Source of the DNA: Tetrahymena thermophila SB210
Lineage: Eukaryota; Ciliophora; Oligohymenophorea; Hymenostomatida; Tetrahymenidae
Direction of reading: 5' to 3'
Length of the DNA stretch: 64,000 bases
Assembly (NCBI RefSeq): GCF_000189635.1
Contig: NW_002476194.1
Span: forward strand, 53,974 to 117,973
This document shows positions 1-32,960 of this stretch, piece after piece. Within the stretch, counting starts at the first letter, position 1. Each line of letters begins with the position of its first letter. A model generated the notes under the pieces. It searched no databases. It saw only the letters and a program-made list of their open reading frames with translations, and had not been told where the DNA came from. A program made the translations under genes and the position numbers.

Positions 1-3000
1 ATTGTTTAAAATTTGACAGCTTGCACAGTTTTTAATATTACCTAAACGTTAGATGATTAAAAAAATTATATTTTAATATTTTTAGCTAATTAACAATTTA
101 TAAAATTAGTTTTGTAAAGACTATTTGATTGTTTCAATTAAATTAGCAGACATTTATGTTAAAATAACTAAATGAATAACTAACTTAATTAAATTAGGAT
201 AATTCTAGCTTTCATATATTTATTTATTAAGGAACTTTAAAATTTATATTTATAGGTAAATCTTTTAAATTGGATAGACTATATATTATTTATAAAAACT
301 AAATATATGAAAGCCATTCCCTTATTATCAATAAATATTTATTTGTGAATATGTAAAAAATAGTAATTACAAAAAGAGCTTAGCTATTCGAGGACAATCT
401 AATTTAATTGATTTAGTTTAATTTAGTAATAAATAGTTAATTTTGGAATGTATGACTTCTAATAAATAAATTAATATTGAATGTTAAAAGTATCGCAAAA
501 AACAATGTCTCCAACCTTTACAAATTACCTTTAAATTAAAAGAAATAATCATTTGAAAATTAATTTAAATTAATTTGAAAAATAATACCATTTATTTAAG
601 CAATAAGCATATACTTATTCCAAATTATTATTTAACTCATTTATGTAGTAATCATATAAATTGTATATACCAGCTATTTAAGGGTTACTATTTTGTTATA
701 TGAACTCTTTGTCTTCAAATAAATAATCTGGATATAAAATTTATGTCGAAGGAAGAAGGATGCAATACTGTGTTTGAAGGACTATATCTGCATATAGGAA
801 ATATTCAAAAGAACATTATAAGCAATTATTTACTGATGAGCATAGTTAGCACCTTTTAAAAATAAATATACATTTAATTTTAATTCAAATTTTTTTATTT
901 GAATAGTAGAAAAATTAAAATAAATAATTTATTCTAAAATTAAATAAATTATAATTTCAATAGTTTTATCTTTTAATAATAATTTTGATAATACTCATTA
1001 AATTTTTTTTTTTAGAATATATTACCCTTAGCTACATTACTATTTTATAGGGGTGATATCTAATTATTTATATATCAATTATATCGTAAAAATTTAGTTG
1101 CCTTAGCTCTAGCTTTAGTTTGATATTTACTCGATCATTAAACTGCTATAACATTTTTAATTTCCAACCCACAAGTATGATGATGGACATCTTAAACATT
1201 AAGGAATAGTAGAAAGTTCTTTACACTAATTATCATATGCAGCACAATATTAATTATCATTTAATTACTTGTATACGCATGGCATATAGTTATAAACTTA
1301 AATTATGCATTAATCTTACTTTACATTCATTTTAGTAAATGGGGTGCAAGAGACTAGAATATATTTATAATTTACTTTATATTTATATCAAAATAATAAT
1401 CTTAATGATTACATTAAAGAGGATTATAGCACTCATTTTAATTACAAGCTTTACATACTGAGCCAGTAGATTGTATACATTTCCCTTTATTTTCATAAAT
1501 AATTTAAAAAATAATAAGTTTAATTTTTTTTTTAATACTAAAAAATGAATTACCATTAAAACCCAAACAAAAACCATCTTATATAGGAATGCATGAATCT
1601 CCAGATAGACATTGTGTGATATGACAAAAAGTACATGAACCAGAATTAATAGAAATACATTTATAATTATTGTCTACACATGTATTTAATGGATCTATAG
1701 GTATGCATTTAGGAGTTTCCGAATTATCCAAGCAAAATAAGTTCATCTAACAAGATAACTGTAAATTTGTTTAAAATAATTAACAAGTTTTTTATGAACT
1801 AATTTTACTAAATCTGAATTATTTTGAGACTAAGATTTCGATAAGCAACGACCATTTTTATCCAAAGCTAAATAAAATAAATATTTTATTTATTTTTAAC
1901 AAAAAAAAAAATTTAATTAGTTTTTATAAATACCAAAAGTATTTGAATCTTCCATTTCGACGCAATACTCTAATTTAAGCAAATCGTTTGTTATTTTACA
2001 AAACCTAGTTTATTTTTTTTTATGTTAAATAATTCAATCAATAATTTTTAAAAAATAAATAAATAAATTTTATTACCCTGAAACACACCATTTAGCACCA
2101 AATTACCCTGCTTATTCTGCTAATAAGCATTTTTAAGTTTTATTCTCTTAAGAGATATACAAATTTTAAGTCATTTCAAAGCATTCCTAATTTAGTAAAC
2201 AATAATTCTTTGAACATAGAACAGTTTAAGGTACTTCTTTTTGTTAGCATGTAGATGTTCCTTATTTTCTACCTGGGAAGCCTTAAAGTTCAGAGTAATC
2301 AACATGTACACAATTATTTAAGCTATCTAGGCATAAAGGTCCAAAGGTACATTAATAAGCAGAATTTAAACTATTATAGCAACCACAATACATAGCCGTT
2401 ACTAAATTAAGTTTAATAATAATTTTTATAAATTGCTTAAAATTAACTTTAATCACAAAAATATTTTATTTTCAAATTTAAATTTACTCTTTGATAAGCA
2501 ATTTGTTGTATTTTAACAATTTTTTAACTACTGATCTGTAAATTTTTAACATTATCCCCTAGTATCTTTTATTACATAATCTAAGTCTGTATCTGAATTT
2601 ACACACAAATATGAACTATTTATATATGCAGAGCAAAAGCTTAGGACCATATCAACAATCATTTAGCTTGAAGAACCTCCCTCACGAATACAAACATGGT
2701 TTCCATCATCTTTACAAGGGCTTTCGTCATTATCTAATTATTTGCAGTAAAAACTGTCATCAATATTACTTCTTTGTTTCCTACAATATCCAGGAGCACA
2801 CCAAATAGCATTTTTACTGGTATCTGTGTCACCGACATTTCCAAAACACTGGTATGTACCTTTCTGAGTCATTATTCTATTTAAAGTTGCATCACTAGAT
2901 AAGATCCTACATGATTAATTTATATCTATACAATATAACTTAGAACATCTATTTTATTAATAAAATTTTATTCAACAAATAGTACTAAAAATATTTTATA

Positions 3001-6000
3001 ATTTAATTATCTTTAAATGGTAATTATTTTTGAATTATTTTATCTTTAGGATTTAAATTAGAGAGTGTTTTACTTAATTGCTTGAGGCTAGTTTTCGATA
3101 AGACAGATATTGTTATTGTCAGCTCCTACGATTTAGTTAAATTATAATTCATAATTCACACATGCCTGACTAACAGCAGAACTTGTATCTTGACAGATAA
3201 AGTTAACTGAAAAGTTGCAAACTTGTATTTGATTGTTGTAATATACTCCTACAAAGGCGCATGTCCCATCAATATATTTACCCTATTATATAAAAAAATA
3301 TATTATTTATTTCTACATTTTTTAAGTTTCACATCATACAATTAGATTTGTATTTTATTATATAGTCTAAGGCCAAACATCCCATTCAGAGCACCCCTAA
3401 TAAGAAGCATCAAAGTTATTTAAACAGATAAACTAAATTTATTAATTGCAATATTTTATTTGGTTCTAAGCAAAGATATTTAGGTAAGCACAGCTTCCGT
3501 CAACATATCTACCCTATTAAAATCAATATTTTAATAAAAGTAAAAACAAAATTTAAACTTGATTACAATAGGTTTAGTTTAGTCTAATTAGTTTAAAGTA
3601 TTAATATCCCACCAGAAAACAGCTTCATCTTTTAATTTTCTATTATCTATGCAAACACTATTTACTTATTCATTCCAAAATAAAATTTATTTAGAAGCAT
3701 AAGTATTTAAGAAAGCACATTTCATGTCAGAAAATATCCCCTTTTTATAATGAAAAAATTTCAATAAATAAATGATTTAAAAATTAAATTAAATTTTACA
3801 ATCACTTGAGTTTGTGAGTTAATTACATTTGATGTAGGACGTTGCCAGATAAGGCATGCTTAATTGGTTTAAGTATCATCCAAGCAAACATTTTTTATTT
3901 ATTAATTGCATTATTTAATAATTTTATTAGAACGTTCATCAAGAAAGGCACAACTATTGTCTGTTCGTATTCCCTATTTTTCATTCATATCTTAGAAATG
4001 AATTTATAATGAAAAAAATTTTTTACCACAGCCTATTTGGTTATTGAAGAATCTAGAGAATTCATATTCCAATTTAAACAAGCTTGATTATTTTAAGAAG
4101 TATTATCTATACAGACCCCAAAAACACTATAATTGCAATTTTATATTGGTTTATTATCATAAATATTTAAAATAGCGCATGTATTGTCTTAGAATATACC
4201 CTTAATAATTAATTAAATTTTTAAGAATTAAAAATATAAAAAATACTTACAACAGGATATATATATTATGGAGAAGGAGTAGTATTCCATTAAATGCATC
4301 CTTATTAGTTGTTATTGACAGATGAATTATATATGCAGACATTATTTTAAATATTGCAATCTTTAATTTAATTTTGAACGAAAATATTTAGATATGCACA
4401 AGAGCCATCTTTGAAGATCCCCTTTAATAAAAATTATAATATACTCTTTATATTTAATTCAGACTAAATCAGTAATAAATAGTGAATGTTAGTAAAAAAA
4501 TATCAAAGGAATTTGAATAAAGTTGTAAATACAATAGGATTCGGATCAAATTAGTCTTTCCACCAAAAAGCAGCTTAATTACTCTAATCCCTATTATCTA
4601 AGCAAATATTAGTTACTTAACTATTCCAGAATAAGATAGATTTTTAAGCATAAGTATTTAAGAAAGAGCATGAATAGTCATTGAATATTCCCTTAATTAA
4701 TTAAAATAAATTTTATAAACCAATCAATTATTAAAATTAAGAAAGTTAATTCTTTACAATAACTTATTCTGGAGAGTTAGTTACACTTGAGACTGCAAGT
4801 TACCAGTTTAAACATGCTTGATTACTTTAATTTCTATTATCTAAGCATATGGTTTTTATTTGTTAATTACAATTTTTAATTATCGAATTTTAATATTTAT
4901 TCTAAAATGCACAACTATTGTCAGCAAATATTCCCTATTTAGTTTTATTAAAAATATGTGAATTTAAAATATAATTTATCCATTAATTTTTTTTATATTT
5001 CACCATTTATAATTGTATATATTAAAATTTTAATTTTACCACAGCCTAATTAGAATTTGAAGAATCTAGAAAACCCATATTCCAATTTAAACAAGCTTGA
5101 TTGTTTTGTGAAGTATTATCTAAACAAACCCCATAAACGCTATAATTACAGTATTTTATGGGCTTATTAGAATAAATATTTAAAATAGCACATGTATTGT
5201 CTTAATAAATACCCTTAAAATAATAAATTAAAATTAAAATTTTTTAAATTATATAAAAATGGTTACAATAGGATATATATATTATGTTGAAGGTTTAACA
5301 TTCCATTAAATACATCCTTGCTAGCTGTTATTGTCAGAAGAATTATATATGCAGACATTATTTACTGTACTACAGTCTTTTATTTAATTTTGAACAAAAA
5401 TATTTAGATATGCACAAGAGCCATCTTAGAAGATCCCCTTTACAAAAATTATAAAAATATTATTTAATTCTAAATGAAATTTATATTTGACCTAGCTTAA
5501 TCTAGTAAATAGTGAAAGTGGGAAAAAATATCATAATTAAAAGAAATATCAAAAGAATTTGAATAAAATTGTAAATACGATAGGATTTGGATCAGATTAG
5601 TCTTTCCACCAAAAAGCAGCTTAATTATGTTAATCCCTGTTATCTAAGCAAACATTAGTTGCCTAACTATTCCAGAACAATATAACTTTTTAAGCATAAG
5701 TATTTAAGTAAGAGCATGAATAGTCATTGAAAATTCCCTTATTTAATTAAAATAAGTATTACAAACTAATCAATCACCAAATTAATAAAGTTAATTTTTA
5801 CAATAACTTAAGTTGCTGAGTTAGTTACACTTGAGGCTGCAATTTACCAGTTTAAGCATGCTTGATTACTTTAATTTCTATTATCTAAGCATATGGTGTT
5901 TATTTATTAATTACAATTTTTAATAATCTTATTTTAATAGTTATTCTGAAATGCACAACTATTGTCAGTATATATTCCCTATTTAGTTTATTAAAAATTT

Positions 6001-9000
6001 GTGAATTTAAAATATAAGTTATTTATTCATTTTTTTTATATTTCGCATTTTATTGTTGTAAATATTAAAATATTACCACAGCCTAATTAGAAATTGAAGA
6101 ATCTAGTTAATTCAAATTCCAATTTAAACAAGCTTGATTATTTTGAGAAGTATTATCTAAACAGACCCCATAAATACTATAATTACATTAATTTATGGGC
6201 TTATTAGAATACATATTTAAAATAGCACAAGTATTGTCTTGATAAATACCCTTAAAATAATTAGTTAAAATTAAATCTTTTAAGAATTAAAAATAAAAAG
6301 ATGCTTACAACAGGATATGATGAAGAAGTATAATAATTCCATTAAATACATCCTTACTAGTTATTATTGATAGATGAATTATATATGCAGACATTATTTT
6401 AAATATTGCAATCTTTTATTTAATTTTGAACGAAAATATTTAGATATGCACAAGAGCCATCCATAAAGATTCCCTTTTCATAAATTAAAATAATATTATT
6501 TATGAAATTTATATTTAGCCTAACTAAATCTGTAATATATTGTGTAATTTAGTAAAAAAATATCATAATTAAAAGAAATATAATTGGATTTTATATAAAG
6601 TTGCAATTACAATAGGATTTGGATCAGATGAGTCTTTCCACCAAAAAACAGCTTAATTATTTTAATTTTTATTCTCTAAGCAAACGTTACTTACTTAACT
6701 ATTCCATTATAATATAGCTTTTTAAGCATAAGTATTTAAGAAAGAGCATGAATAGTCATTGAAGATTCCCTTAATTAATGAAAATATTATAAACAAATCA
6801 ATTATTAAATTAAGAAAGTTAATTGTTTACAATAACTTGGTTTGGCGAGTTAGTTACACTTGAGAGTGCAAGCTACCAGTTTAAACATGCTTGATTACTT
6901 AAATTTCTATTATCTAAGCATATGGTATTTATTTATTAATTGCAATTTGAGATTTGTTTATTTGAATATTAATTCAAAAATGCACAACTATTGTCAGTAA
7001 ATATTCCCTATTTAGTTTAATTAAATATATTTGAATTTAAAATTTAAGTATCTATAGATTTTTATTATATTCAACATTTTATTATTGTAGATATTAAAAT
7101 TTAAATTTTACCACAGCCTAATTAGAAATTGAAGAATCTAGAGAACTCATATTCCAATTAAGACAGGCTTGATTGTTTTGAGAATTATTATCTAAACAGA
7201 CCCCATAAACACTATAATTACATTATTATATAGGCTTATTAGAATAAATATTTAAAATAGCACATGTATTGTCTTAATAAATACCCTTAAAATAATTAAT
7301 TAAAATTAAATTTTTATAAAATTAAAAATATAAAAATGGTTACAATAGGATATATATATTGTTCTGAAAATGTAAAATTCCATTAAATACATCCTTGCTT
7401 GTTGTTATTGACAGAAGAATTATATTTACAAACATTATTTATTGTACTACAGTCTTTTATTTAATTTTGAACAAAAGTATTTAGATATGCACAAGAACCA
7501 TCGTTGAATATACCCTTTAAGAAAAATTAAAAAAAATATTATTTAGTTCTATATGAAATTTATATTTGACCTAACTCAATAGTAAATAATGAAAATAGGG
7601 AAAAATATCAGAATTAAAAGAAATATCAAAGTATCTGAAAAAGCAATTACAATTGGATTTGGATCAGATGAGTCTTTCCACCAAAAAACAGCTTAATTAG
7701 CCTTATCCCTATTATCTAAGCAAACATTAGTTACTTAACTATTCCAGAATAATATAGCTTTTTAAGCATAAGTATTTAAGTAAGAGCACGAATAGTCATT
7801 GAAGATTCCCTTATTTAATTAAAATAAATAATAATAATTAATGTATTATAAAATTATTAAAGATAATTTTTTACAATAATTTGAGTTGGTGAGTTAATTA
7901 CACTTGAAGCTGCAACCTACCAATTTATACATGCTTGTAAATTTTGATTTTTATTATCTAAGCATATGTTGTTAATTTGTTAATTACAATTTAAAATTTC
8001 CTAATTTTAATATTAATTCAAAAATGCACAACTATTGTCAGCAAACCTTCCCTATTTAGTTTTATTAAAAATTTGTTAATTTAAGATCTATATTATGTAA
8101 AAATTTTTATTTTATTCAAATTTAGAAAGTTGAAAGTATCAAAATTTTACCACAGCCTAATTAGGAATTGAAGAATCTAGAGAACTCATATTCCAATTTA
8201 AGCAAGCTTAATTATCTTGAGTAGTATTATCTAAACAAATTGCATTGATATTAAAATTGCAGTTTATTATTTTTTATTTAGTATATATATTTTAAATGGC
8301 GCATGAAAAATCACTAAATATTCCCTAATTGATTTAATTAATATTTTTTTTAAAAATTAAAGTAAATTTTTAGAATAAAAAGTTAAAATTTAATAAATAC
8401 TATTGGTTAAGTTGTTTATTATATAGATGAAAGATTCCATGAAATACATCCTTATAGATTATTATTGAGAGAAGAATTATAAATACACACACCAGTATTT
8501 TAAGTGTTGCAATTATTGATTTTTTTACTATCGTATACATCTTTATATGCACATGTTCCATCAGAAAATATTCCCTAATATTATTAATTATTTGTATAAA
8601 AATAAATTAAATACAACAATTTTTATTTTTAAAAATATTAACTTTTTCTTAAAATATATATAAATAATTAATTAATTAAAATATATTATACTATTATTAT
8701 TTGATTATTGTTTTAAGAGATTTACTGAGTATTCCATTAAAAGCAACCTTATTAATTGTTAGCAGTACTGTCTAAGCAAACCGAATTAATATTTTAATTA
8801 CAATATTTTATTTGATTGTTTGAATAGACTCCTAAGAATACGCATGTCCCATCAATATCAAATTTACCCTAACAATTATTTAATTAAATAATTTCTTTAA
8901 AAAATTAATAAATTACTATTGGCTATGAAGTATCTAAAATATTTAATTTAGAGAGATCCCAACAAGTGTTGTCAGTTGGATTAAAACATACTGAGTTAAC

Positions 9001-9775
9001 ATATAAATGAGAGCAATCATTTTAGGAATTCACTTTCTAACTTTATGTTATACAGTTTCTTTATATACCTGAAACACCTAAAATCCCATACTAAGTATAA
9101 AGGGTTTGCATTTATGAAGTATTATATATATTGCATTTATTATTATCATTTTAGTTGATGCAGTAATTATCTGCACAAGAAACTGCATTTAGATTATCAT
9201 TTAATCCTAATATGCAAACTTTAGACACTCCTGATAAACCATTTAAACTAGTTTGAGGCAGATCTCTATAACCTATGCAAGTTATTGAAGCATCTTTACT
9301 TTATAATTAACATACAGGATTTGTTGAAAAATCAGAAAGATTACCAGAGTATAAAGTAATCACCCAATTCTATAAATTAAGCTATAGTAAATCTGTATTT
9401 TTTAAATATACAAAATTAGTTATGTAAAATATTTTATATTAACACTTTAAGCATAGAATTTAATTTACTAAACTAATTGCATAAAAAGAAAGAATTTTGA
9501 TTTGTAAGGCACCGCCCTCCTTTGAAGCCTCCAATATTAACAAGTTAAGTATTTGTAACATCATAACATGATTATTAATCTACACAACAAAAACTTGCAC
9601 TGTTGTTAAGATTATAGTTACTACATCCTTAAGTTATCCATGCACATTAATCATTATAGTTAGCGCCTGTTGCTAAAGCACAGTTGCATGTTAATATAAA
9701 CTACCAATCGTATTAGCTATTTAAGCATCTTATAAAAAAAATAAGTTATAAACAAATATACTTTATTCTATACAT
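1..9775 (-). CDS. Giant Cys-module surface protein, copy A (partial, 3' end outside window)
   Basis: Minus-strand gene whose 3' part lies beyond the left edge. The start ATG at 9775-9773 opens a hydrophobic signal-peptide-like stretch (starts MYRIKYICLQLIFF). Exon 1 is 9469-9775 and exon 2 is 8917-9392; their phases join (1, then 0), and both are Cys-rich. From exon start 8868 down to about 3040 there are 23 exons, each encoding one module of about 60 residues of the form G-I-x-x-D-x-x-C-A-x-L-N ... C ... V-C-L-D ... A-C-x-W. Below 3 kb, Cys-rich exons of furin/growth-factor-receptor type follow, for example CRCPSSYLWVG-like text near 1.15 kb (LRCPSSYLWVGNQKC). The gene is homologous along its whole visible length to copy B, which continues into a beta-helix and a membrane domain, so copy A probably does too (inference). 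No function is recognised. Predicted location is the cell surface. Confidence 0.75.
3040..8868 (-). repeat. Tandem array of 23 Cys-module exons, copy A
   Basis: Exon starts, read as the plus-strand signature ..tAYCCCt, recur at about 3283, 3513, 3740, 3973, 4202, 4426, 4690, 4931, 5213, 5442, 5737, 5979, 6253, 6472, 6772, 7012, 7283, 7515, 7808, 8053, 8323, 8570 and 8868. Exons are roughly 190 bp and introns roughly 50-80 bp. Four module types follow each other in fixed order, giving a higher-order unit of about 1.03 kb. The marker ccacagcct occurs near 4025, 5040, 6075, 7110 and 8151. The introns repeat along with the exons, so the array grew by DNA duplication of whole exon-intron blocks. 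Confidence 0.85.
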
Positions 9776-10690
9776 TCTTTTTCTTTTTCTACTTTTTTAT
9801 CATAATTATACTAAAAGAAAATTAATTATCATATATTTTACAAAAGAATCCAAATAATTACAATTTTTTGAAAAGAAATTGTGGTTATCCTAAATCTCTT
9901 CTGACTTTCTACTTTGAAAAAAAAAGTTATTTGATTTTCCTCTAAAAATTTAAATAAATTTCTCGTATTAAAATTTTACCAATAAATTAGAAGTAGGTAC
10001 TTATGTAAAAATATAAAAATTTAGAAATGTAATAAATTAATTACCATACAAAGTATATCAATAATTAATTTGTTGTAAAAATTAATATTTACATAAAAAT
10101 TGAATTTAAGGTATCAAAAAATTACTATTTTTTATCTCAACAAATCTTTTTACATTTTAGCTAAAAATATTTCTTTCGAATTTTTCATAAAATACATTAA
10201 AAATAAAATAAAGGCTATAAAATATTGTGTAAATCAAATAAGAAGGCTTAAAAAATAAAATGAAACTAGTCATAGTTTTCAACTAAGCCCAATAATAAAT
10301 GCTAATTTAAAAAGAGACTCAAATAAGTATTAATAAACCCATTTTAAAAATATTATTAATTTATTAAAAATTATGTACATATTAATTAAAGTTTAAATGA
10401 TTCTTTCTTTTAATTTTATTGAAAAAATATTTAATAGTAAAAAGATAAAATAATTAAATTTGAAAACTAAAAAAGAAAAAAAAATAAATATAAAATCAAT
10501 TAGAAATTATTTATTTAATAATTAATTTAATTATTTTAAATTTTTCTTTTGATTTTTTTAACTAAATTGTAAAATAAATATCTTCAAAACTTATTTAAAA
10601 TAATTTAATATTAAATATTCAAAGCATCAAGTTTTTTGGATCAGCAATATTATAAAATTAACTATTTTATTTTTTACCTAAAACATTTAA
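9776..10690. other. Intergenic region 5' of giant gene A
   Basis: AT-rich DNA with no convincing coding frame. It lies between the divergent starts of giant gene A (minus) and LRR gene 1 (plus), so it should carry promoter elements for both. It is conserved with 32019-32960 upstream of copy B, including a shared block around 10140-10230 (ctttcgaatttttca). No specific motif can be assigned. Confidence 0.6.
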
Positions 10691-12863
10691 ATTATACATT
10701 TAGGATTTAGGAAATCCGAATACCCGATATCCGAGATAACGAGAGTTTACAGTAATACAACCGTTAGCGAAAATATTAAAAGCTTGCAAGAATGTATTAA
10801 ATATCTAGATTTAAAAATCATTTCTATTTTTAATAGGTATAGTAAATAGATTGATATTGATATTATTAGAGAATCTATTTTCTCAAATAATAATATTCTG
10901 ACTATTAATCTTGATTTTACAAATGACTTAACAGTTGTTAGGATTTAAACGTTAGTTTTTTTTGAAAAATTAAATTAATGGAGATGGTATCAATTTTTTA
11001 TGAGAAAATTGAAAAAATTAGTGACACACTATTTGTAATTTTATTGAGATTTTTAAATATTCACTATCAAAAAATAAAATAAAGCTAATTTAAATAAATG
11101 AGATTTACTTTTTTCTGTATATATTATGTGTTTTTTTTAGTTTCTTCACAAGACAGATTTTTTTTAAAAGTTTTAAAAAAATGTTATTTTAAAATTAAAA
11201 TAAGAAAATATTTTTAAGAATTTGCTAAATTGTCAAATTAAAAAATAATTATATTTATTTTAGAGATTTAATTAGCTATTTTGTTTTTTAATTAATTACT
11301 TTATAAAGGATTAGGTTTTAACTATCTTCTTAATTTTTTTATTTTTTGCTTTACTTTGATTAAATTTTAAGTTTATAAAAGTTAAAAAAAATGGATAAAT
11401 TAAAAATAGCTCTTTAAAAATAAGAATTTAAAGTCTTAGAAGAAGTATTTTGAATTTAAATTAGTTTTAAAATTATTCAATTTTATTTTTTTTTAATAAA
11501 AGTTTCTTTCTTCTTTGTTATTTCATCACACAGAATTAGAATTATATTTAGGGTAAGAAATATACTTTTTATCAAAAATATTTTATTTTTAATTCTATTT
11601 TTTATAAGAAAAAAAAATATTGGCAATTAAGAAGCTTCTCAAATAGCAAAAACCCTAAGAAAATGTTAAAATCTTACTAAGCTAAAGCTTGTGCTATTGT
11701 AAAAAATTTAATTTAAAATTAATTAATTCTATCAAATAAAAAAGTGAAAATAAAATATCAGAATATGGTGCTGTTGGTTTGGGAATCGCATTTCTGTAAT
11801 TGGTAAATCTTAAAATTTTAGAAATAAATCTAAGGTAACTTCCAAACTAGCTTTTATTTTTGCTCAATAACTTTAAATGTTTAATTGGGAAAAAAAATTA
11901 ATTTAATTTATTAATGTTTTGAATAAAAATGTTAGGGATAATAACATAGGTCCTAAAGGAACTGTGTAGATTGCTAATTCATTATCATATCTCCCACAAC
12001 TGAAAAATTTAACTTTGAATTTAAAGTAATAAATATTTTTTTATTTTATTCCTTTTATAAATGAAGTACTATTAAAAATAATTATTGGAATGTAATAAAA
12101 TATGAAAAGTGCTTTGATAAATAAATACTTATAAATATTTCAGTAAATTTATTCAAATTTCCTTAAATTAATTTATAATTAAAAATAAGTTTTTATAACT
12201 CTAGTTTAGTTAATTTAAATTTATTTTATTAATTTTTTTTTAAACAATTTCAAATCATAACAAATAACTTTTTTTCAATCAAGTAAAAATTTTATCGGTG
12301 ATGAAGGAGCATCTAAAATTGGTGAAGCTATTGCTAAAAGCTTAAATATATCTTTTTTAGAACTAAACTTAGCGTAAAAATTAATTTACTTATGAAATTT
12401 TGATGAATAAGTTAAAAATTAATAATTTTTAATTTTAATCTTTTTACCTACATATTTTATTTAATTTTAACAAAAATAGAAATAACTAAATTCTGTCAGA
12501 GGGTATTTCTAATTTATCTGAAGGAATAAAAAACTCTAAGTGTTTGATAAAATTGATACTTGATTTATAGTAAAATATTTAATATATATCTTAAAACAAA
12601 ATAAAAAATATTATCAAAAGTAATAATTCAATCAACGAAAGTGATTGCCAAAATTTAATTAATAGAATAGGGAGTAATAAAAATATTTTCTAATTAAATA
12701 TTATTATTTCGTAAGTTATTTATACATTTGCTAAAATAATTTTTTTTAAATATTGCATTTAATTATAAAAAGGTCTAATTTGATAAATGAAGAAGCATAA
12801 AAGAAACTAAGAATATAAGCAAAAAAAATAAATAGGATTGTGAAAGGTTACTTCTATCTTTGA
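10690..12863 (+). CDS. LRR gene 1 (one repeat per 90-bp exon; 5' end uncertain)
   Basis: Plus-strand gene encoding RNI/GALA-like leucine-rich repeats. Firm exons are 11609-11698, 11745-11834, 11936-12025, 12284-12373, 12480-12569, 12621-12710 and the terminal exon 12773-12863 (TGA at 12861). All internal ones are exactly 90 bp with phase-2 introns on both sides, and each encodes one 30-residue repeat, for example IGPKGTVQIANSLS..LPQLKNLTLNL and IGDEGASKIGEAIAKSLN. Coding-looking text at 10700-10950 (ILTINLDF) and an exon end at 11552 (ELELYLG) probably belong to the 5' part. I could not find the start codon or join these pieces, so the 5' limit is approximate. The partner is unknown; such repeats normally bind proteins. 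Its end is 194 bp from the end of giant gene B (convergent). Confidence 0.75.
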
Positions 12864-13057
12864 TTTACTTGGGTTATGAAGCATTTATTAATAAATATCT
12901 TTATAAATTATCTTTAAATTTTATGAAATGCTTTTTAAAAATTTGTTTATTTAAAACAAAAAAAAACAAAACATAAATAAAACAAACAAATTAAACTATT
13001 TAAGTTTTATTTAATTTATTTTTAATTATTTTAAAATCAATTCTATTTTCATTAAGT

Positions 13058-21000: not shown

Positions 21001-24000
21001 AACAAACTAAGAAGAGCATAAAGAGCACAATATACTGTATTAAGCTATGCTTAATTTACTAAAATCAATATCCACTTGTTATCCATTTTCTAAAATTTAA
21101 CTCCAATTCACACTTTATTAATTATAGTAACCACCATAAAAGCAGCTCAAGCAGTTTTCAGGACAAGGCTCACATTAATTTAGATAACTTAATGCATATT
21201 TATATTCACAGGTTCGACACACTTTTATATTGTTTAAAATTTGACAGCTTGCACAGTTTTTAATATTACCTAAACATTTGATAATTAAAAAAATTATATT
21301 TTTAAATTTTTAGCTAATTAATAATTTATTTTATAAAGATTAATTCAAAGTTTAAATTAACTAAAAAGAAACTTATGTTAAAATAAATAAATGAATAATT
21401 TATTTAAATTAAGATAGTGTTAGCTTTCATATATTTATTTATTAAGGAACTTAAAATATATATTTATAGGTAAATCTTTTAAACTGGATAAACTTTATCT
21501 TGAAAAAATCTCTTTATTTATAAAAACTTATCCCTTATTATCCATAAAATATTTATTTGTGAATTTATGTAAAAATAGTAATTACAAAAAGAGCTTAGCT
21601 ATTCGAGGACGATCTAATTTAATTGATTTAGTTTAACTTGGTAATAAATAGTTAATTGTGGAATTTATGATTTCTGATAAATATATTAATATTGAATGTT
21701 AAAAGTATCGCAAAAAAGAATGTCTCCAACCTTTACAAATTACCTTTACATAAAAAAAAATAATTATTTGAAAATTAATTTAAAAAATAAAAAAATAATA
21801 CCATTAATTTAAGCAATAAGCATTTACTTATTCCAAATTACTATTTAACTCATTTATGTAGTAATCATATAAATTGTATATACCAGCTATTTAAGGGTTA
21901 CTATTTTGTTATATGAACTCTTTGTCTTCAAATAAATAATCTGGATATAAAATTTATGTCGAAGGAAGAAGGATGCAATACTGCGTTTAGAGGACTGTAT
22001 CTGCATATAAGAAATATTCAAAAGAACATTATAAGCAATTATTTGCTGATGAACAAAGTTAGCACCTTTTAAAAATAAATATTCATTACATTTTAATTCA
22101 AATAATTTTTATTTTATTCTTATAAAAACTAAAAAAAGTTATTTATTCTCAAATTATATAAATTCATAATTTCAATCATTTTATCTTTTAATAATAATTT
22201 TGATAATACTCATTAAATTTTTTTTTTTGAAATTAAGTATTTGATTTTAAAATCTTTGCTAATTTTTTAAAGCTGGTATCTATAAATCATAGATGTATTG
22301 TATAAAACCAATTATTAATAAAAATTGTTTAATTTTTTTTGCTTTTAATACAAATGATTTTATAAAAATAAGATAAAATTAATTAATATTTCTTTTTTCT
22401 AGAAAAATAATTTAAATAATATTAAAATCAATAAATTTTGTTTAAAAAAAATATTACCCTTAGCTACATTACTATTTTATAGGGGTGATATCTAATTATT
22501 TATAAATCAATTATATTGTAAAAATTTAGTTGTCTTAGCTCTAGCTTTAGTTTGATATTTGCTCAATCATTAGACTGCTATAACATTTTTAATTTCCAAC
22601 CCACAAGTATGATGATGGACATCTTATACATTAAGGAATAGTAGAAAGTTCTTTACACTAATTATCATATGCAGCACAATATTAATTATCATTTAATTAC
22701 TTGTATACGCATGGTATATAGTTATAAACTTAAATTATGCACTAATCTGACTTTACTTTCATTTAAGTAAATGGGGTGCAAGAGACTAGAATATATTTAT
22801 AATTTAATTTAAATTTATATCAAAATAATAATCTTAATGATTACAATAAAAAGGATTATAGCACTCGTTTTAATTACAAGCTTTACATACTGAGCCAGGA
22901 TTTTGTACACATCTCCCTTTATTTTCATAAATAATTTAAAAAATAATAAGTTTAAATTTACTATTGAACACTAAAAAATGAATTACCATTAAAACCCAAA
23001 CAAAAACCATCTTATATAGGAATGCATGAATCTCCAGATAGGCATTGTGTTATATGACAAAAAGTACATTAACCAGAATTAATAGAAACACATTTATTAT
23101 TATAGTCTACACATGTATTTAATGGATCTATTGGTATACATTTAGGAGTATCATCCAAGCAAAATAAGTTCATCTAACAAGATAACTGTAAATTTATTTA
23201 AAATAATTAACAAGTTTTTTATTAACTAATTTACTAAATCTGAATTATTTTGAGATTAAGATTTCGACAAGCAGCGACCATTTTTATCCAAAGCTAAATA
23301 AAATGAATATTTATTTTAATTAAAAAAAAATTTATTATTTTTTATAAATACCAAAAGTATTTGAATCTTGCATTCTGATACAATATTCTAATTTAAGTAA
23401 ATTGTTTGTTATTTTACAAAACCTAGTTTATTTTTTATATTTAATAATTTAATCAATTATTTTTTTAAAATTAAATAAATAAATTTTATTACCCCTAAAC
23501 ACACCATTTAGCACCATATTATCCTGCTTATTCTGCTAATAAGCATTTATAAGTTTTATTCTCTTAAGAGATATACAAATTTTAAGTCATTTAAACACAT
23601 TGTTAATTTAGTAAACAATAATTTTTTGAACATAAAACAGTTTAAGGTACTTCCTTTAGTTAGCATGTAGATGTTCCTTATTTTCTACCTGGGAAGCCAT
23701 TAATTTCAGAGTAATCAACATGTACACAATTATTTTAGCTATTTAGGCATAAAGGTCCAAAGGTACATTAATAAACAGAGTTTAAACTATTATAACAACC
23801 ACAATACATAGCCGTTACTGAATTATGTTTAATAATAATTTTAAAAAATTGCTTAAAATTAGCTTTTATAGCAAAAATATTTTATTTTAAAATTTAAATT
23901 TACTGTTTGAAAAGCACCTTGCTGTATTTTTACAAATTCTTAACTACTAATTTGTAAATTTTTAGCATTAACCCCTAGTATCTTTTATTACATATTCTAA

Positions 24001-27000
24001 GTCTGTATCTGAATTTACACATAAATATGAACTGTTTTTATATGCAGAGCAAAAGCTTAGAACCATATCAACAATCATTTAGCTTGAAGAACCTCCCTCA
24101 CGGATACAAACATGGTTTCCGTCATCTTTACAAGGACTTTCGTCATCTCCTAATTACTTACAGTAAAAACTGACATCAGTATTACTTCTTTGTTTCCTAC
24201 AATATCCAGGAGCACACCATATAGCATTTTTACTGGTATCTGTGTTACCGATATTTCCAAAACACTAGTATGTACCTTTCTGAGTCATTATTCTATTTAA
24301 AGTTGTATCACTAGATAATATCCTACATGATTAATTTATATCTATACAATATGACTTTGAGCATCTATTTTATTAATAAAATTATATTCAACAAATATAA
24401 AATTTAAATAAAATAACTAAAAATATTTTATAATTTAATTATCTTTCTAAATGGTAACTATTTTTGAATTATTTTATCTTTAGGGTTTAAATTAGTGAGT
24501 GTTTTACTTAACCGCTTTAAGCTAGTTTTCGATAAGACAGATATTGTTATTGTCAGCTCCTACGATCTAGTTAAATTATTATTCATAATTCACACATGCC
24601 TGACTAACAGCAGAACTTGTATCTTGACAGATAAAGTTTACTGAAAAGTTGCAAACTTTTATTTGATTATTTTAATATACTCCTACGAAGGCGCATGTTC
24701 CATCAATATATTTACCCTATTTTATAAAAAAATATATTATTTATTTCTACATTTTTAAGTTTCTCTTCATACAATTAGATTTGTATTTTATTATATAGTC
24801 TAAGGCCAAACATCCCATTCAGAGCACCCCTAATAAGAAGCATCAAAGTTATTTAAACAGATAAACTAAATTTATTAATTGCAATATTTTATTTGGTTCT
24901 AAGCAAAGATATTTAGGTAAGCACAGCTTCCGTCAACATATCTACCCTATTAAAATCAATATTTTAATAAAAGTAAAAACAAAATTTAAACTTGATTACA
25001 ATAGGTTTAGTTTAGTCTAATTAGTTTAAAGTATTAATATCCCACCAGAAAACAGCTTCATCTTTTAATTTTCTATTATCTATGCAAACACTATTTACTT
25101 ATTCATTCCAAAATAAAATTTATTTAGAAGCATAAGTATTTAAGAAAGCACATTTCATGTCAGAAAATATCCCCTTTTTATAATGAAAAAATTTCAATAA
25201 ATAAATGATTTAAAAATTAAATTAAATTTTACAATCACTTGAGTTTGTGAGTTAATTACATTTGATGTAGGACGTTGCCAGATAAGGCATGCTTAATTGG
25301 TTTAAGTATCATCCAAGCAAACATTTTTTATTTATTAATTGCATTATTTAATAATTTTATTAGAACGTTCATCAAGAAAGGCACAACTATTGTCTGTTCG
25401 TATTCCCTATTTTTCATTCATATCTTAGAAATGAATTTATAATGAAAAAAATTTTTTACCACAGCCTATTTGGTTATTGAAGAATCTAGAGAATTCATAT
25501 TCCAATTTAAACAAGCTTGATTATTTTAAGAAGTATTATCTATACAGACCCCAAAAACACTATAATTGCAATTTTATATTGGTTTATTATCATAAATATT
25601 TAAAATAGCGCATGTATTGTCTTAGAATATACCCTTAATAATTAATTAAATTTTTAAGAATTAAAAATATAAAAAATACTTACAATAGGATAAATATATT
25701 ATAGAGAAGGAGTAGTATTCCATTAAATGCATCCTTATTAGTTGTTATTGACAGATGATTTATATATGCAGACATTATTTTAAATATTGCAATCTTTAAT
25801 TTAATTTTGAACGAAAATATTTAGATATGCACAAGAGCCATCTTTGAAGATCCCCTTTAATAAAAATGATAATAAACTATTTATATTTAATTCAGACTAA
25901 ATCTGTAATAAATAGTGTATGTTAGTAAAAAAATATCAAAGGAATTTGAATAAAGTTGTAAATACAATAGGATATGGATCAGATTAATCTTTCCACCAAA
26001 AAGCAGCTTAATTACTCTAATCCCTATTATCTAAGCAAACATTAGTTACTTAACTATTCCACAATAAGATAGTTTTTTAAGCATAAGTATTTAAGAAAGA
26101 GCATGAATAGTCTTTGAATATTCCCTTAATTAATTAAAATAAATTTTATAAATCAATCTATTAAATTAAGAAATTTAATTCTTTACAATAACTTGTTCTG
26201 GTGAGTTAATTACACTTGAGACTGCAAGTTACCAGTTTAAACATGCTTGATTACTTTAATTTCTATTATCTAAGCATATGGTCTTTATTTGTTAATTACA
26301 ATTTTTAATAATTTTATTTTAATAGTTATTCTAAAATGCACAGGTGTTGTCAGTAAATATTCCCTATTTATTTTTGTTAAAAATTTGTGAATTTAAAAGA
26401 ATAGTTTTCTATTCATTTATTTATATTTCACAACTTATAGTTAAAATTATTAAAATTTTAATTTTAATTTTACCACAGCCTAATTAGAAATTAAAGAATC
26501 TAGAGAACTCATATTCCAATTTAAACAAGCTTGATTGTTTTGAGAAGTTTTATCTAAACAGACCCCTTAAACATTATAATTACATTATTGTATGGGCTTA
26601 TTATAATAATTATTTAAAATAGCACATACATTGTCTTAATAAATTCCCTTAAATTAATTAATTAAAATTAAATTTTTTAAGAATTAAAAATATAAAAATG
26701 GTTACAATAGGATATATGTATTATGCTGAAGATTTAAAATTCCATTAAATACATCCTTGGTAGTTGTTATTGCCAGAATAATTATATTTACAGATATTAT
26801 TTTGGGTATTACAGTCTTTTATTTTATTTTGAACAAAAGTATTTAGATATGCACAAGAGCCATCTTGGAAAATCCCCTTTAACAAAAATTATAAAAATAT
26901 TATTTAATTTTATTTGAAATTTATATTTGACCTAACTCAATCTAGTAAATAGTGAAAGTGGGAAAAAATATCATAATTAAAAGAAATATCAAGGGAATTT

Positions 27001-30000
27001 GAAAAAAATTGCAAATACAATAGGATATGGATCAGATTAATCTTTCCACCAAAAAACAGCTTAATTATTTTAATCCCTGTTATCTAAGCAAGCATTAGTT
27101 ACTTAACTATTCCAGGATGATATAGCTTTTTAAGCATAAGTATTTAAGTAAGAACATGAAAAGTCTTTGAATGTTCCCTTATTCAATTAAAATAAGTATT
27201 AGAAACAAATCAATAATCAAATTAATAAAGTTAATTTTTTACAATAACTTAAGTTACTGAGTTAGTTACGCTTGAGGTTGCAAGCTACCAGTTTAAGCAT
27301 GCTTGATTAGTTTAATTACTATTATCTAAGCATATGGTGTTTATTTAATTATTGCATTTTAAAATTATCTTATTTTAATAGTTATTCTAAAATGCACAAC
27401 TATTGTCAGTAAATATTCCCTATTTAGTTTTATTAAAAATGTGTGAATTTAAAATATAAGTTAATTATTCATTTTTTTTATATTTCACTTTTTATTGTTG
27501 TAAAAATTAAAATTTTACCACAGCCTAATTAGATATTTAAGAGTCTAAAGAACTCATATTCCAATTTAAACAAGCTTGATTATTTTGAGTAGTATTATCT
27601 AAACAGACCCCATAAATACTATAATTACATTAATTTATGGGCTTATTAGCATACATATTTAAAATAGCACAAGTATTGTCTTGATAAATACCCTTAAATT
27701 AAATAGTTAAAATTAAATCTTTTAAGAATTAAAAATATAAAAATGCTTACAACTGGATATGGCGAAGAAGAATAATTATTCCATTAAAAACATCCTTACT
27801 AGTTATTGTTGATAGGTGAATTATATATGCAGACATTATTTTAAATATTGCAATCTTTTATTTAATTCTGAACGAAAACATTTAGATACGCACAAGAGCC
27901 ATCCTTGAATATCCCCTTTTCAAAAATTAAAATAATATTATTTAATTCTATATGAAATTTATATTTAGCCAAACTAAATCTGTAAAATATTGTGTAAGTT
28001 AGTAAAAAATATCATAATAAAATGAAATATAAATGGATTTTATATAAAGTTGCAATTACAATAGGATAAGATTAATCTTTCCACCAAAAAACAGCTTAAT
28101 TATTTTTATCCCTGTTATCTAAGCAAGCATTAGTTACTTAACTATTCCAGGATAATATAGTTTTTTAAGCATAACTATTTAAGTAAGAGCATGAATGGTC
28201 TTTGAATTTTCCCTTATTTAATTAAAATAAATATTTCAAACAAATCAATGATTAAATTAACAAATTTAATTATTTACAATAACTTAAGTTACTGAGTTAG
28301 TCACGCTTGAGGCTGCAAGCTACCAGTTTAAGCATGCTTGATTAGTTTAATTTCTATTATCTAAGCATATGGTGTTTATTTATTAATTGCAATTTAAAAT
28401 TATCTTATTTTAATAGTTATTCTAAAATGCACAACTATTGTCAGTAAATATTCCCTATTTAATTTTATTAAAAATGTGTTTATATAAAATCTAAATAATT
28501 TATAAATTTTTATTATATTCATCTTTTGATAATTTGAAGTATCAAAATTTTACCACAGCTTAATTAGAATTTAAAGAGTCTAAAGAACTCATATTCCAAT
28601 TTAAACAAGTTTGATTATTTGGAGAAGTATTATCTAAACAGACCCCAGTAATATTATAACTACATAATTTTATTGGCTTATTATTATAAATATTTAAAAA
28701 AGCACAAGTACTATCTTAGTAAATACCCTTAAAAATAGTTAATTAAAATTCATTATTTTAAGAATTAATAATATTGTGTATGTAAGTAAAAAATATTATA
28801 ATTTAAAGAAATATCAAAGGAATTTGAATAAAGTTTCAAATACAATAGGATTTGGATCAGATGAGTCTTTCCACCAAAAAACAGCTTAATTTAATTAATT
28901 TTTATTCTCTAAGCAAACATTATTTACTTAACTATTCCATTATAATATAGATTTTTGGGCATAGGTATTTAAGAAAGAGCACGAATAATCATTGAATATT
29001 CCCTTAATTAATGAAAATAAATAATATAAACCAATCAATTATTAAATTAACAAAGGTAATTCTTTACAATAACTTGTTCTGGTGAGTTAGTTACACTAGA
29101 GACGGCAAGCTACCAGTTTAAACATGCTTGATTACTTTTTCTATTATCTAAGCATATGGTGTTTATTTATTAATTACATTTTGAAATTGTTTTATTTTAA
29201 TATTAATTCAAAAATGCGCAACTATTGTCAGCAAATATTCCCTATTTAGTTTAATTAAAAATATTTGAATTTAAAATTTAATTTATCTATAGATTTTTAT
29301 TATATTCAACATTTTATTGTTGAAAGTATTAAAATCTTACCACTGCCTAATTAGAAATTGAAGAATCTAGAGAACTCATATTCCAATTTAAACAAGCTTG
29401 ATTGTTTTGAGAAGTATTATCTAAACAGACCCCATAAACATTATAATTACATTGTTGTATGGGCTTATTAGAATAAATATTTAAAATAGCACACGTATTG
29501 TCTTAATAAATACCCTTAAAATAATAAATTAAAATTAAATCTTTTAAGAATTTAAAATAAAAAATGGTTACAATAGGATATATATATAAATATTGCGCTG
29601 AAAATGTAGAATTCCATTAAATACATCCTTGCTGGTTTTTATTGACAGTAGAATTATATTTACAGACATTGTTTGAAGTATTACAATCTTTTATTTAATT
29701 TTGAACAAAAGTATTTAGATATGCACAAGAACCATCTTAGAAGATCCCCTTTAACAAAAATAATAAAAATATTATTTAATTCTATATTAAATTTATATTT
29801 GACCTAAATCAATCTAGTAAATTGTGAAAATTGGGAAAAATATCATAATTAATAGAAATATCAAAGGAATTTGAAAAAACTTGCAATTACGATAGGATTT
29901 GGATTAGATGAGTCTTTCCACCAAAAAACAGCTTAATTATCCTTATCTCTATTATCTAAGCAAACATTAGTTACTTAACTATTCCAGGATAATATAGCTT

Positions 30001-32018
30001 TTTTAGCATAAGTGTTTAAGTAAGAGCATGAATAGTCTTTGAAGATTCCCTTATTTAATTAAAATAAATAATAAAAATTAATAATAATTAAATTATTAAA
30101 ATAATTTTTTACAATAATTTGGTTTGTCGAATTAGTTACATTTGAAGCTGAAACCTACCAATTTATACATGCTTGCTTATTTTATAAAATTCTATTATCT
30201 AAGCATATGTCGTTGATTTGTTAATTACAATTAAAAATTATTTTATTTTAATATTAATTCAAAAATGCACAACTATTGTCAGTAAATATTCCCTATTTAG
30301 TTTTATTAAAAATATGTAAATTTAAAATCTAAGTTTTCTATAAATTTTTATTTTATTCCACATTTGAAAGTTTAAAGTATCAAAATTTTACCACAGCCTA
30401 ATTAGAAATTGAAGAATCTAGAGAACTCATATTCCAATTTAAGCAAGCTTAATTATCTTAAGAAATATTATCTAAACAAATTGTGTTGATATTAAAATTG
30501 CAGTTTATTATTTTTTATTTAGTATATTGATTTTAAATGGCGCATGAAAAATCACTAAATATGCCCTAATTGATTTAATTAATTAATTAATATTTTTTTA
30601 AAAAAGTAAAGCAAATTTTTAGAATAAAAAGTTAAAACTTAATAAATACTATTGGTTAAGTTGTTTATTATATAGATGAAAGATTCCATGAAATACATCC
30701 TTATAGATTATTATTGAGAGAAGAATTATAAATACACACACCAGTATTTTAAGTGTTGCAATTATTGATTTTTTTACTATCGTATACATCTTTATATGCA
30801 CATGTTCCATCAGAAAATATTCCCTAATATTATTAATTATTAGTATTAAAATAAATTAAATAAAATAATTTTTATATTTAACAATTTTAACTTTTCTTAA
30901 AATAAATATAAATAATTAATTATTATACTATTATTATTTGATTATTGTTTTATGAGATTTACTGAGTATTCCATTAAAAGCAACCTTATTAATTATTAGC
31001 AGTACTATCTAAGCAAACTTAATTAATATTCTAATTACAATATTTTATTTTTTTGTTTGAATAGATTCCTAAGAAGACGCATGTCCCATCAATATCAAAT
31101 TTACCCTAACAATAATTTAATCAAATAATTTCTTTAAAAAATTAATAAATTACAATTGGCTACGATGTATCTAAGATATTTAATTTAGAGAGATCCCAAC
31201 AAGTGTTGTCAACTGGATTAAAACATACTGAGCTAACATATAAATGAGAGCAATCATTTTAGGAATTCACTTTCTAACTTTATGTTATGCAGTTTCTTTA
31301 TGTACCTGAAACACCTAAAATCCCATATTACGTATAAAGGGTTTGCATTTAGGAAGTATTATATATTTAGCATTTGTTATTTTCCTTTTAGTTGATACAG
31401 TAATTATCTGCACAAGAAACTGCATTTAGATTATCATTTAATCCTAAAATGCAAACTTTAGAAAGTCCTGATAAACCATTTAAACTAGTTTGAGGCAGAT
31501 CTCTATAACCTATGCAAGTTATTGAAGCATCTTTACTTTATAATTAGCATACAGGATTTGTTGAAAAATCAGAAAGGTTACCAGAGTATAAAGTAATCAC
31601 CCAATTCTATAAATTAAGCTATAGTAAATCTGTTTTTTTTAAATATGTAAAATTAGTTATGTAATATATTTTATATTAACAATTAAAGCATAGAATTTAA
31701 TTTACTAAACTAATTGCATAAAAAGAAAGAATTTTGATTTGTAAGGCACCGCCCTCCTTTGAAGCCTCCAATATTAACAATAACATGTTAAGTATTTGTA
31801 ACATCATAGCATGATTATTAATCCACACAACAAAAACTTGCAGTGTTGTTATAATTATAGTTACTACATCCTTAAGTTATCCATGCGCATTAATCATTAT
31901 AGTTAGCGCCTGTTGCTAAAGTACAGTCGCATGTTAATATAAACTACCAATCGTATTAGCTATTCAAGCATCTTATAAAAAAAATAAGTTATAAACAAAT
32001 ATACTTTATTCTATTCAT
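13058..32018 (-). CDS. Giant Cys-module / beta-helix / multi-pass membrane protein, copy B (complete)
   Basis: Minus-strand gene of about 19 kb with several dozen introns. The ATG at 32018-32016 is followed by a signal-peptide-like stretch (MNRIKYICLQLIFF). Exon 1 is 31706-32018, and the second exon starts at 31629. Order from N to C: Cys-rich head; 26 Cys-module exons (31110 down to about 24.5 kb); furin-like Cys-rich exons (24.5-19.45 kb); a parallel beta-helix-like region (about 19.45-15.24 kb, with rungs such as AFNKGGVIYY and FIKNSAYIGAIF); a Cys pocket containing GHLGALCEDCD; several membrane helices; and a cytoplasmic tail. Resolved 3' exons are 14935-15025, 14029-14584, 13601-13967 and 13058-13542, ending in TGA at 13060-13058 with all phases matching. 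The C-terminal layout is, from memory, that of the large family of ciliate putative transmembrane proteins. Ligand and role are unknown. Confidence 0.8.
15240..19450 (-). other. Beta-helix-like region of giant protein B
   Basis: Reverse-strand exons read as runs of Asn-, Ser- and small-hydrophobic-rich rungs with recurrent GG and N-x-A motifs, typical of right-handed parallel beta-helices of the polymorphic-outer-membrane/pectate-lyase kind. It opens near 19.45 kb with NESEFTKALVYMNELGV and ends near 15.24 kb just before KCYNQLSNC. The boundaries of individual exons were not resolved. Around 17.38-17.75 kb the DNA looks intronic. The fold assignment is by pattern, not by alignment. Confidence 0.6.
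19450..24500 (-). other. Furin/growth-factor-receptor-like Cys-rich region of giant protein B
   Basis: Reverse-strand exons rich in C-x-x-C and C-x-x-C-x(n)-C, such as CEPCPENCLSCFYGG near 21.14 kb. The counterparts in copy A include LCSSVNNCLQCSFEYF (about 0.8 kb) and ISINSGSCTFCH (about 1.64 kb). This is the usual extracellular linker between N-terminal modules and the beta-helix in large ciliate surface proteins. Exon borders are only partly resolved. Confidence 0.65.
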
Positions 32019-32960
32019 TGCTTTTCTTTTTCTACTTTTTTATCATAATTATACAAACAGAAAGTTAATTATTATGAATTTTACAAAAGAATCCAAATAA
32101 AAACAAATTTTTTGAAAAGAAATTGTGGTTATTCTAAATCTCTTAATACTTTCTACTTTGAAAAAAAAGTAATAATTTACTTTTCCTCTAAAAATTTAAT
32201 CAAATATCTCATATATTAGAATTTTACCAATAAATTAGAAAGGATTTTTAGAAGTGGGTGCTTAAGAAAAAATATAAAAATTTAAAAGTGTAATAAATTA
32301 CCATACAAAGTATAGAAACAATTAATTTGTTAGTAGAAATTTATATTTACTTAAAAATTGAATTCAAAGTATCAAAAAATCACTATTTTTTATCTATACA
32401 AATCTTTTTACATTCTACTAAAAATATTTCTTTCGAATTTTTCAAAAAATACATTAAATATAAAATAAAGACTATAAAATATTGTAAAAATCAAACATAA
32501 GGCTTAGAAAATAAAATGAAATTTAATTATAGTATTCAACTAAACCCAATAATAAATGCTAATTTAAAAAGATACTTAAATAAGTCATAATAAACCCATT
32601 TTTTTAAATAAATAAATAATAGATTTTTTTTATTGAATTACTTTGCTAAATATTCTAAATTTATTAAAAATTATATGTATTTATTGATGAAAATTTAATT
32701 TTATTGAAGAAAAAATTTAATAGTAAAAGATAAAATAATTAAATATAAAAATTAAAAAGAAAGAAAAAAAAATAAATTTATAAACAAATTAGATATTATT
32801 TTATAATTATTTTAAATTTTTCCTAAAATTTTTTTAACTAAAGTGTAAAATAAATATCTTAAAAAATTATTTAAAATCATTTTATTATGAAATATTGAAA
32901 ACTCCAAGTTTTTGGATCAGCTATATTATAAAATTAAATATTTTATTTTTAACCAAAAAC
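21229..32960. repeat. Segmental duplication, copy B
   Basis: Partner of 1-10680. It covers the 5' half of giant gene B plus about 900 bp upstream of its start codon. Differences include an in-frame 6-bp addition in exon 1 (exon 313 bp against 307 bp), an intron insertion at about 22222-22455, and the changed number of modules. Confidence 0.9.
24500..31110 (-). repeat. Tandem array of 26 Cys-module exons, copy B
   Basis: Exon starts lie near 24717, 24948, 25174, 25407, 25633, 25858, 26125, 26364, 26647, 26875, 27176, 27420, 27691, 27912, 28211, 28450, 28725, 29001, 29240, 29513, 29743, 30048, 30291, 30563, 30817 and 31110. The four-type unit marker (ccacagcct or a variant) lies near 25462, 26475, 27519, 28553, 29339 and 30391. 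Compared with copy A there is one more four-exon unit, and one module is missing between 28725 and 29001, hence 26 rather than 23 exons. Confidence 0.85.

Follow-up and report, generated by a model that had tools for sequence, protein, structure and literature searches.

Ciliates carry large families of giant surface proteins whose role is mostly unknown, and some large membrane proteins of broadly similar build act in mating recognition. According to the available portion of PMC10901506, the members of the mating-type recognition complex of T. thermophila range from 92 to 212 kDa, and one of them, MRC2, combines eight TM helices with a pectin-lyase fold. The same portion describes MTA, MTB, and MRC1 as proteins with a Cys-rich GFR-like region and five TM helices; MTA and MTB form a head-to-head pair with mating-type-specific N-termini and a terminal exon that encodes the TM and GFR parts. 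The Ser or immobilization antigens, as presented in the available parts of PMC4136848 and PMC3341644, are Cys-rich surface proteins encoded in tandem; the former source describes them as GPI-linked and places the T. thermophila candidates often in tandem arrays. Repeats encoded by rows of similar in-frame exons are also characteristic of the Tetrahymena LRR genes, whose 90-bp phase-2 exon design is genus-wide, the exons numbering tens of thousands and the genes well above one thousand; these rows are thought to grow by unequal exchange (PMC6564038, available part).

The window analyzed here is a stretch of 64,000 nucleotides from a T. thermophila macronuclear chromosome (positions 53,974-117,973 of the 117,973-bp contig C304; window positions below zero lie to its left), and searches were run on the 101-Mb, 445-contig assembly. 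The assignment to this species agrees with a TERT fragment of 89 aa from the same genome that is identical (89/89) to PDB chain 6d6v_A, the T. thermophila protein. Under the standard code no reading frame reaches 150 aa, and under table 6 there are 306 frames of at least 120 aa. Self-comparison of the whole contig revealed a single large tandem repeat, C304:45610-64663 versus 66670-86939, with 89-91% identity, and the tandem duplication is real. Copy A spans window positions -8363 to 10690 and copy B 12697 to 32966. The two giant genes lie head-to-tail, both on the minus strand, with start codons at 9775 (A) and 32018 (B), 22,243 bp apart. The reading that we consider probable, on the strength of sequence comparisons, is a tandem duplication of a unit in which an LRR gene and a giant receptor gene face each other; the giant products are predicted to be polytopic surface proteins with a disulfide-rich ectodomain on 6-8 membrane helices. 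The genes and borders of the locus are as follows.

Positions 1..9775, on to about window position -8044 (C304:45929), minus strand: giant gene A, 5' part; 46 exons projected from B, ~4,500 aa, 23 module exons.
Positions 13058..32018, minus strand: the whole of giant gene B, with 49 exons, GT-AG at each internal junction, and a frame free of internal stops.
Positions 10764..32966, no strand: duplication unit B, in which LRR1 faces giant B, ~22.2 kb, from sequence comparisons.
Positions 10691..10763, no strand: tandem junction between the right end of unit A and the left end of unit B, from sequence comparisons.
Positions 9776..10690, no strand: sequence 5' of giant A with homology to the B flank, from sequence comparison.
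Positions 32019..32966, no strand: sequence 5' of giant B with homology to the A flank, from sequence comparison.
Positions 10764..12860, plus strand: LRR1, 5'-truncated LRR gene that converges with its partner, giant B; it has six 90-bp phase-2 LRR exons plus a final exon.
Positions 33870..35574, plus strand: LRR2, likewise from the large LRR family but outside the duplication, from sequence comparisons.

A first-pass annotation of this DNA had described a giant gene for a Cys-rich, membrane-anchored protein as duplicated in tandem. The self-comparison, the gene models, and the borders bear this out, as they do the spacing of the start codons and the conservation of exons (94.5% identity), introns (3788/4148, 91.3%), and ~0.9 kb of upstream DNA (781/877, 89.1%); the 3' flank is 85.8% identical. 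The interval proposed was 1..32960, but the duplicated DNA goes further, with giant A extending ~8 kb to the left of the window. Special constraint on the 0.9-kb promoter was considered and rejected, the flank being 89.1% identical versus 91.3% for the introns. Further copies had been suggested to the left, where C304 instead begins with CCCCAA telomeric repeats at a distance of 45.9 kb from the giant A 3' end. Searches of the 101-Mb assembly with the 5' flank, the N-terminus, and the modules found no third copy. The 5' flank gave 51 matches, among which the 2 at this locus alone cover it and the other 49 are short (≤69 bits), while the giant N-terminus and the modules had no match beyond these two genes at E 0.001.

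Gene models were obtained with a home-made HMM trained on C304 and with exons set by hand. The small first intron of the HMM model for giant B was dropped and the read-through start kept; this start, MNRIKYICLQLIFFIRCLNS, looks signal-peptide-like by eye. Giant B comprises 4,677 or 4,695 aa, depending on one splice pair, and projection of the longer version onto copy A gave 46 exons and 4,521 aa with no internal stop and one TT donor, so the shorter splice version suits A better at that point. The masses of the two proteins are 518 and 538 kDa (about 520-540 kDa), and their identity is 91.1%. Pairwise comparison of A and B over the whole protein gave dS 0.126, dN 0.043, and omega 0.34, and omega in five regions was 0.22 (N-terminus), 0.38 (modules), 0.29 (Cys-rich), 0.32 (helix region), and 0.45 (C-terminus). 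None of the 6 exonic gaps between A and B breaks the frame, versus 52 of the 63 intronic gaps (each gap assigned by its start position), and substitutions at codon positions 1, 2, and 3 number 241, 160, and 347. The last exon is without third-position bias (16/10/12), so the frame of the tail is unsure. Both copies look functional, and the selection acting on them is purifying.

The first-pass annotation had further suggested that the duplicated unit may be an LRR gene, a shared promoter, and a giant gene, with LRR1 and LRR2 as probable duplicates of each other. Such a divergent unit, in which LRR and giant genes share a promoter and were duplicated together, would fit the position of LRR1, divergent and ~1 kb upstream of the giant A start codon. 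However, the homology upstream of the giants ends at 10690 (A) and 32966 (B), short of both LRR genes, and LRR1 begins at the junction without the first ~115 codons of its counterpart LRR0, the relic of an LRR1 duplicate that adjoins giant A at its 3' end (C304:45090 to ~45850, outside the window). LRR1 thus stands divergently upstream of giant A because of the junction alone. These borders refute a shared-promoter unit, save for the case in which a lost LRR1 duplicate was later replaced by LRR2, and such a unit is very unlikely. LRR1 and LRR2, in turn, share no DNA match longer than 75 bp outside the giants' 5' flank, and their repeats are on average 26% identical, versus 27% among repeats inside either gene. 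Another LRR locus (L034) matched the LRR1 exons at 0.31-0.48 in its best windows, which were selected from the entire locus, unlike the LRR2 exons, which matched at 0.24-0.41. By these sequence comparisons, LRR2 is no duplicate of LRR1. The annotation had stated beforehand that the absence of further copies, or unrelatedness of the two LRR genes, would tell against it; no further copies were found, and the two LRR genes are not duplicates.

The duplication of an LRR gene facing a giant gene, the reading preferred here, is traced by a more sensitive comparison that extends the unit leftward. C304:45090-45429 resembles window positions 10764-11099 (75%, E 1.6e-61), C304:45443-45541 resembles 11227-11321 (79%), C304:45531-45557 matches 11360-11386, and C304:45610 onward pairs with 12697 onward. 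Block order and strand are alike beside both giants: LRR 5' exon, non-LRR DNA, and the 3' end of the LRR gene. Since the relic LRR0 sits at the 3' end of giant A, the unit consists of an LRR gene facing a giant gene at its 3' side, and the size of unit B, ~22.2 kb, agrees with the start-codon spacing expected if the units abut directly. LRR0 retains an ATG-headed first exon, from C304:44744 in the HMM model, and is without the LRR body (the DNA of window positions ~11,390-12,697), with a 22-bp gap in its last exon. LRR1 has the LRR body and lost its 5' part because the duplication junction cuts there; no ATG was found upstream of it in the corresponding frame of C304:64664-64960. Judged from this arrangement, the partner of LRR1 by descent is giant B, the gene that it faces.

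The exon design of the LRR genes, which the annotation had called unusual, is present as six 90-bp phase-2 LRR exons in LRR1, but it is shared across the genus according to the available part of PMC6564038, and LRR1 itself belongs to the 90-bp-exon LRR genes. As a control, 8 kb elsewhere on C304 contained 9 open AG-90-GT segments, so that the LRR sequence counts and the 90-bp length alone says little. LRR0 and LRR1 are 75-79% identical, whereas the giants reach 91% in their introns and 85.8% in the 3' flank, so that a common age for the entire duplication unit does not follow; gene conversion would account for the difference, and so would faster change in decaying genes. The LRR genes would be bystanders, damaged by the duplication or afterwards. 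Neighbouring genes at a duplication junction may in this way mimic a shared-promoter unit.

The predicted giant proteins have a common layout: a signal-peptide-like start, an N-terminal domain, 23 or 26 modules, a Cys-rich and CxxC region, a beta-helix-like region, and 6-8 membrane helices. The corresponding features are listed below.

Positions 24508..31105, minus strand: 26 module exons of gene B (58-aa repeat, phase 0), from the gene model and module searches.
Positions 3074..8868, minus strand: 23 module exons of gene A, from the gene model and module searches.
Positions 28060..28727, minus strand: three module exons found in B and absent in A; the nearest sequences are other B exons (0.874, 0.966, and 0.948).
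Positions 18773..24310, minus strand: Cys-rich and CxxC part of gene B, growth-factor-receptor-like; the final exon of this part extends into the helix region.
Positions 15739..18717, minus strand: beta-helix-like part of gene B; in the paralogue on contig C259 the homologous exon is above the Pfam Chlam_PMP cut-off, whereas B itself is not.
Positions 13058..14584, minus strand: C-terminal polytopic membrane domain of gene B, from the gene model and hydropathy.

In the 4,695-aa version of giant B, the N-terminal domain covers aa 1-263 and the 26 modules end at aa 1752. The Cys-rich and CxxC region, with 105 Cys and 25 CxxC, reaches aa 3106, and the beta-helix-like region together with a Cys-containing stretch reaches aa 4227, followed by the C-terminal membrane region. 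At a hydropathy threshold of 1.6, the C-terminus has 6 membrane segments in B and 7 in A, plus one within the helix region of each. The TM segments are distributed across the last three exons, and the CxxC region lies in earlier exons.

Automatic modelling gives a paralogue at C259:246653-257667 a length of 2,919 codons; its collinearity with the giants begins at aa 1601 of A or 1773 of B, and identity is 26-31%. Among 23 exon ends of B that were compared, 19 have a mapped position in the paralogue, and for 11 of the 19 a C259 exon end in the same phase is no more than one residue away. The paralogue thus resembles the giants in its collinear Cys-rich, CxxC, beta-helix-like, and membrane parts and in its exon ends, whereas it has no module array: it contains at most one module, a single marginal match (E 0.042, with two proteins searched) at aa 236-280 that is not an exon of its own. 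Pfam gave no match over cut-off in the parts submitted, the beta-helix exon of B included, whereas the C259 exon homologous to it (26% over 524 aa) matched PF02415 Chlam_PMP with 44.2 bits versus a cut-off of 20.6. GG[x][hydrophobic] motifs, which together with FxxN we take to mark PMP repeats, occur 8 times in B aa 3107-3998 versus 0.2 in shuffles (0/2000 reach 8) and 7 times in the paralogue versus 0.2 (0/2000). FxxN is weakly enriched in B (16 versus 8.8, 21/2000) and occurs 11 times versus 7.2 (172/2000) in the paralogue. The predicted structure of the B beta-helix exon alone had a pLDDT of 35.5 and no usable fold, so the helix fold of B rests on homology. With a long disulfide-rich ectodomain, a signal-peptide-like start, a polytopic anchor, and signs of purifying selection, the giants are most likely receptors or adhesins, in which the row of modules would act as a long stalk or a multivalent binding surface.

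The module array is an unusual feature of this locus, and the searches found it in no other gene of this genome: all 49 genome-wide module matches (49/49) lie inside C304. The module exons are mostly 153-180 bp long and in phase 0, with one module per exon. Alignment of 46 of the 49 showed four Cys in 35 of them, and the remaining 11 are without the second and fourth Cys jointly, which suggests a disulfide between these two (C2-C4). Like the Tetrahymena LRR genes, the giants derive a repeat from a row of similar in-frame exons; the LRR exons, however, are 90 bp long, in phase 2, and spread over a great many genes in the available part of PMC6564038, whereas the giants use an unrelated Cys module, in phase 0 and in two genes. 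Unequal exchange between phase-0 exons would have built the array out of a single module-like segment; this module, at first part of an ancestral exon, would have become an intron-flanked unit and would then have multiplied. Drawn from one paralogue, this passage from one ancestral module through an intron-flanked unit to many copies is the simplest reading. We propose tentatively, and with more doubt than conviction, that an orphan disulfide module with at most one ancestral copy became a frame-neutral row of 23-26 phase-0 exons in one T. thermophila receptor lineage, which would add a second system of exon arrays to that of the 90-bp LRR exons, with array length still changing and the pair kept alike by gene conversion. 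If this is true, almost any subset of module exons could be skipped with the frame intact, and ectodomain length would be an evolvable recognition or adhesion trait. The locus offers an array-less relative, arrays of 23 and 26 exons, inter-copy recombination, and constraint side by side, and could be used to test the origin of exon arrays and the importance of ectodomain length.

Exchange between the copies is suggested by two long tracts of identity.

Positions 15513..16710, no strand: 1198-bp tract identical between the copies; the A partner, -5616 to -4419, lies outside the window.
Positions 24767..25685, no strand: 919-bp tract identical between the copies; the partner in A is 3334..4252.

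The identical runs of 1198 and 919 bp include introns, and when the same mismatches were shuffled 2000 times, no run exceeded 208. Their natural reading suggests gene conversion, although collapse during assembly could also have produced them. The tracts would likewise fit an assembly artefact at the level of the whole locus, with the copies being alleles or a misjoined repeat; yet the copies differ by 6.7% mismatches over 18,923 aligned bases and in their numbers of modules, the junction carries LRR1, and the flanks are unlike on either side, so an artefact of this kind is hardly credible. Within the arrays, 20 of the 23 B module exons that have an A partner match that partner best, and 3 of the 23 match another B exon better.

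These signs of recombination between and within copies, in tandem genes for Cys-rich predicted surface proteins, recall the often tandem Ser antigen candidates (PMC4136848, available part). The first-pass annotation had suggested a variant-antigen locus as one reading of the linked array and its shared 5' region; the copies would be alternately expressed and would diversify in the manner of the Ser or immobilization antigens. We consider this quite improbable. Only two copies were found genome-wide, neither has a broken frame, and omega is 0.22-0.45 across the five regions and 0.38 in the modules themselves. Moreover, whereas the available part of PMC4136848 describes a GPI linkage for the Ser antigens, the hydropathy of the giants indicates a polytopic C-terminus of several membrane segments followed by a longer tail, not a GPI-type C-terminus.

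The duplicated receptor-like genes of our preferred reading belong, by their C-terminal domain, to a much wider family. This domain was matched in at least 119 rows at E 0.001 or better, at least 115 of them outside C304 (3.5e-16 to 9.7e-4); the counts are lower bounds, as 129 of 313 candidates were scored, and because the query is hydrophobic, some of the weakest rows (down to E 9.7e-4) may be false. After merging, the domain recurs at at least 114 other loci, and at least 61 of these lie in at least 21 same-strand clusters with gaps of ≤40 kb. Among the matches listed, 37 spacings are below 25 kb, with a median of 12.3 kb. Tandem copying is thus ordinary for this gene family, 61 of the 114 loci listed sitting in same-strand clusters.

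The breadth of the family also bears on a part in mating recognition, which the annotation had also considered; it could be that of a giant relative of MRC2 or of the mating-type locus proper. By description alone, the giants resemble MRC2 in a beta-helix-like region, putatively of the pectin-lyase type, in 6-8 predicted membrane helices, and in the predicted character of a large surface protein, and they share with MTA, MTB, and MRC1 a Cys-rich, CxxC-containing GFR-like region and several membrane helices. In contrast, at 518 and 538 kDa they far exceed the sizes given for the known complex members in the available portion of PMC10901506, and they differ from MRC2 in a long module array and a CxxC region. 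Their 6 or 7 C-terminal segments differ from the five TM helices of MTA, MTB, and MRC1, their TM part spans three exons with the CxxC region encoded earlier, unlike the single terminal exon of MTA and MTB, and both giants lie on the minus strand with no head-to-head pair. The same portion of PMC10901506 gives MTA and MTB as the sole mating-type-specific genes, which speaks against a mating-type locus here, and a similar C-terminal domain at so many other loci tells against a mating component. A role of this kind is improbable, whereas the giants may act more broadly in recognition or adhesion. One family member, on contig C10, has a different ectodomain, with WD40-like matches below the cut-off (PF00400, 26.2 bits versus 27) and an automatic model that ends before the adjoining membrane domain; ectodomains therefore appear to vary on a similar membrane part.

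The DNA upstream of the two tandem genes for giant Cys-rich surface proteins contains a listed tandem repeat at giant B, in very AT-rich sequence, but none in the repeat list at giant A, where the 5'-truncated LRR gene LRR1 is located, indicating that the distal upstream DNA differs between the copies. Another tandem repeat perhaps accounts for the stop of the assembly at the right end of the contig (C304, NW_002476194.1). The features concerned, with a polymerase gene located between them, are:

Window 33045-33151: 49-bp tandem repeat, upstream of giant B
Window 43862-48294, minus strand: RNA polymerase I second-largest subunit gene (best PDB match RPA2, E 1.5e-287)
Window 63440-63964: two tandem copies of a 264-bp unit, near the contig end

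Outside the window, gene prediction yielded an 864-aa protein with 11.8% Cys, repeated CxxC motifs, and a hydrophobic C-terminal tail, which is possibly another surface protein:

C304:26244-29571: predicted Cys-rich protein

On contig C10, a member of the family sharing the C-terminal polytopic membrane domain of the giants carries a WD40-like ectodomain:

C10:739325-747340 (L051, L052): membrane-domain family member

It lies in a cluster of four, all on the same strand.
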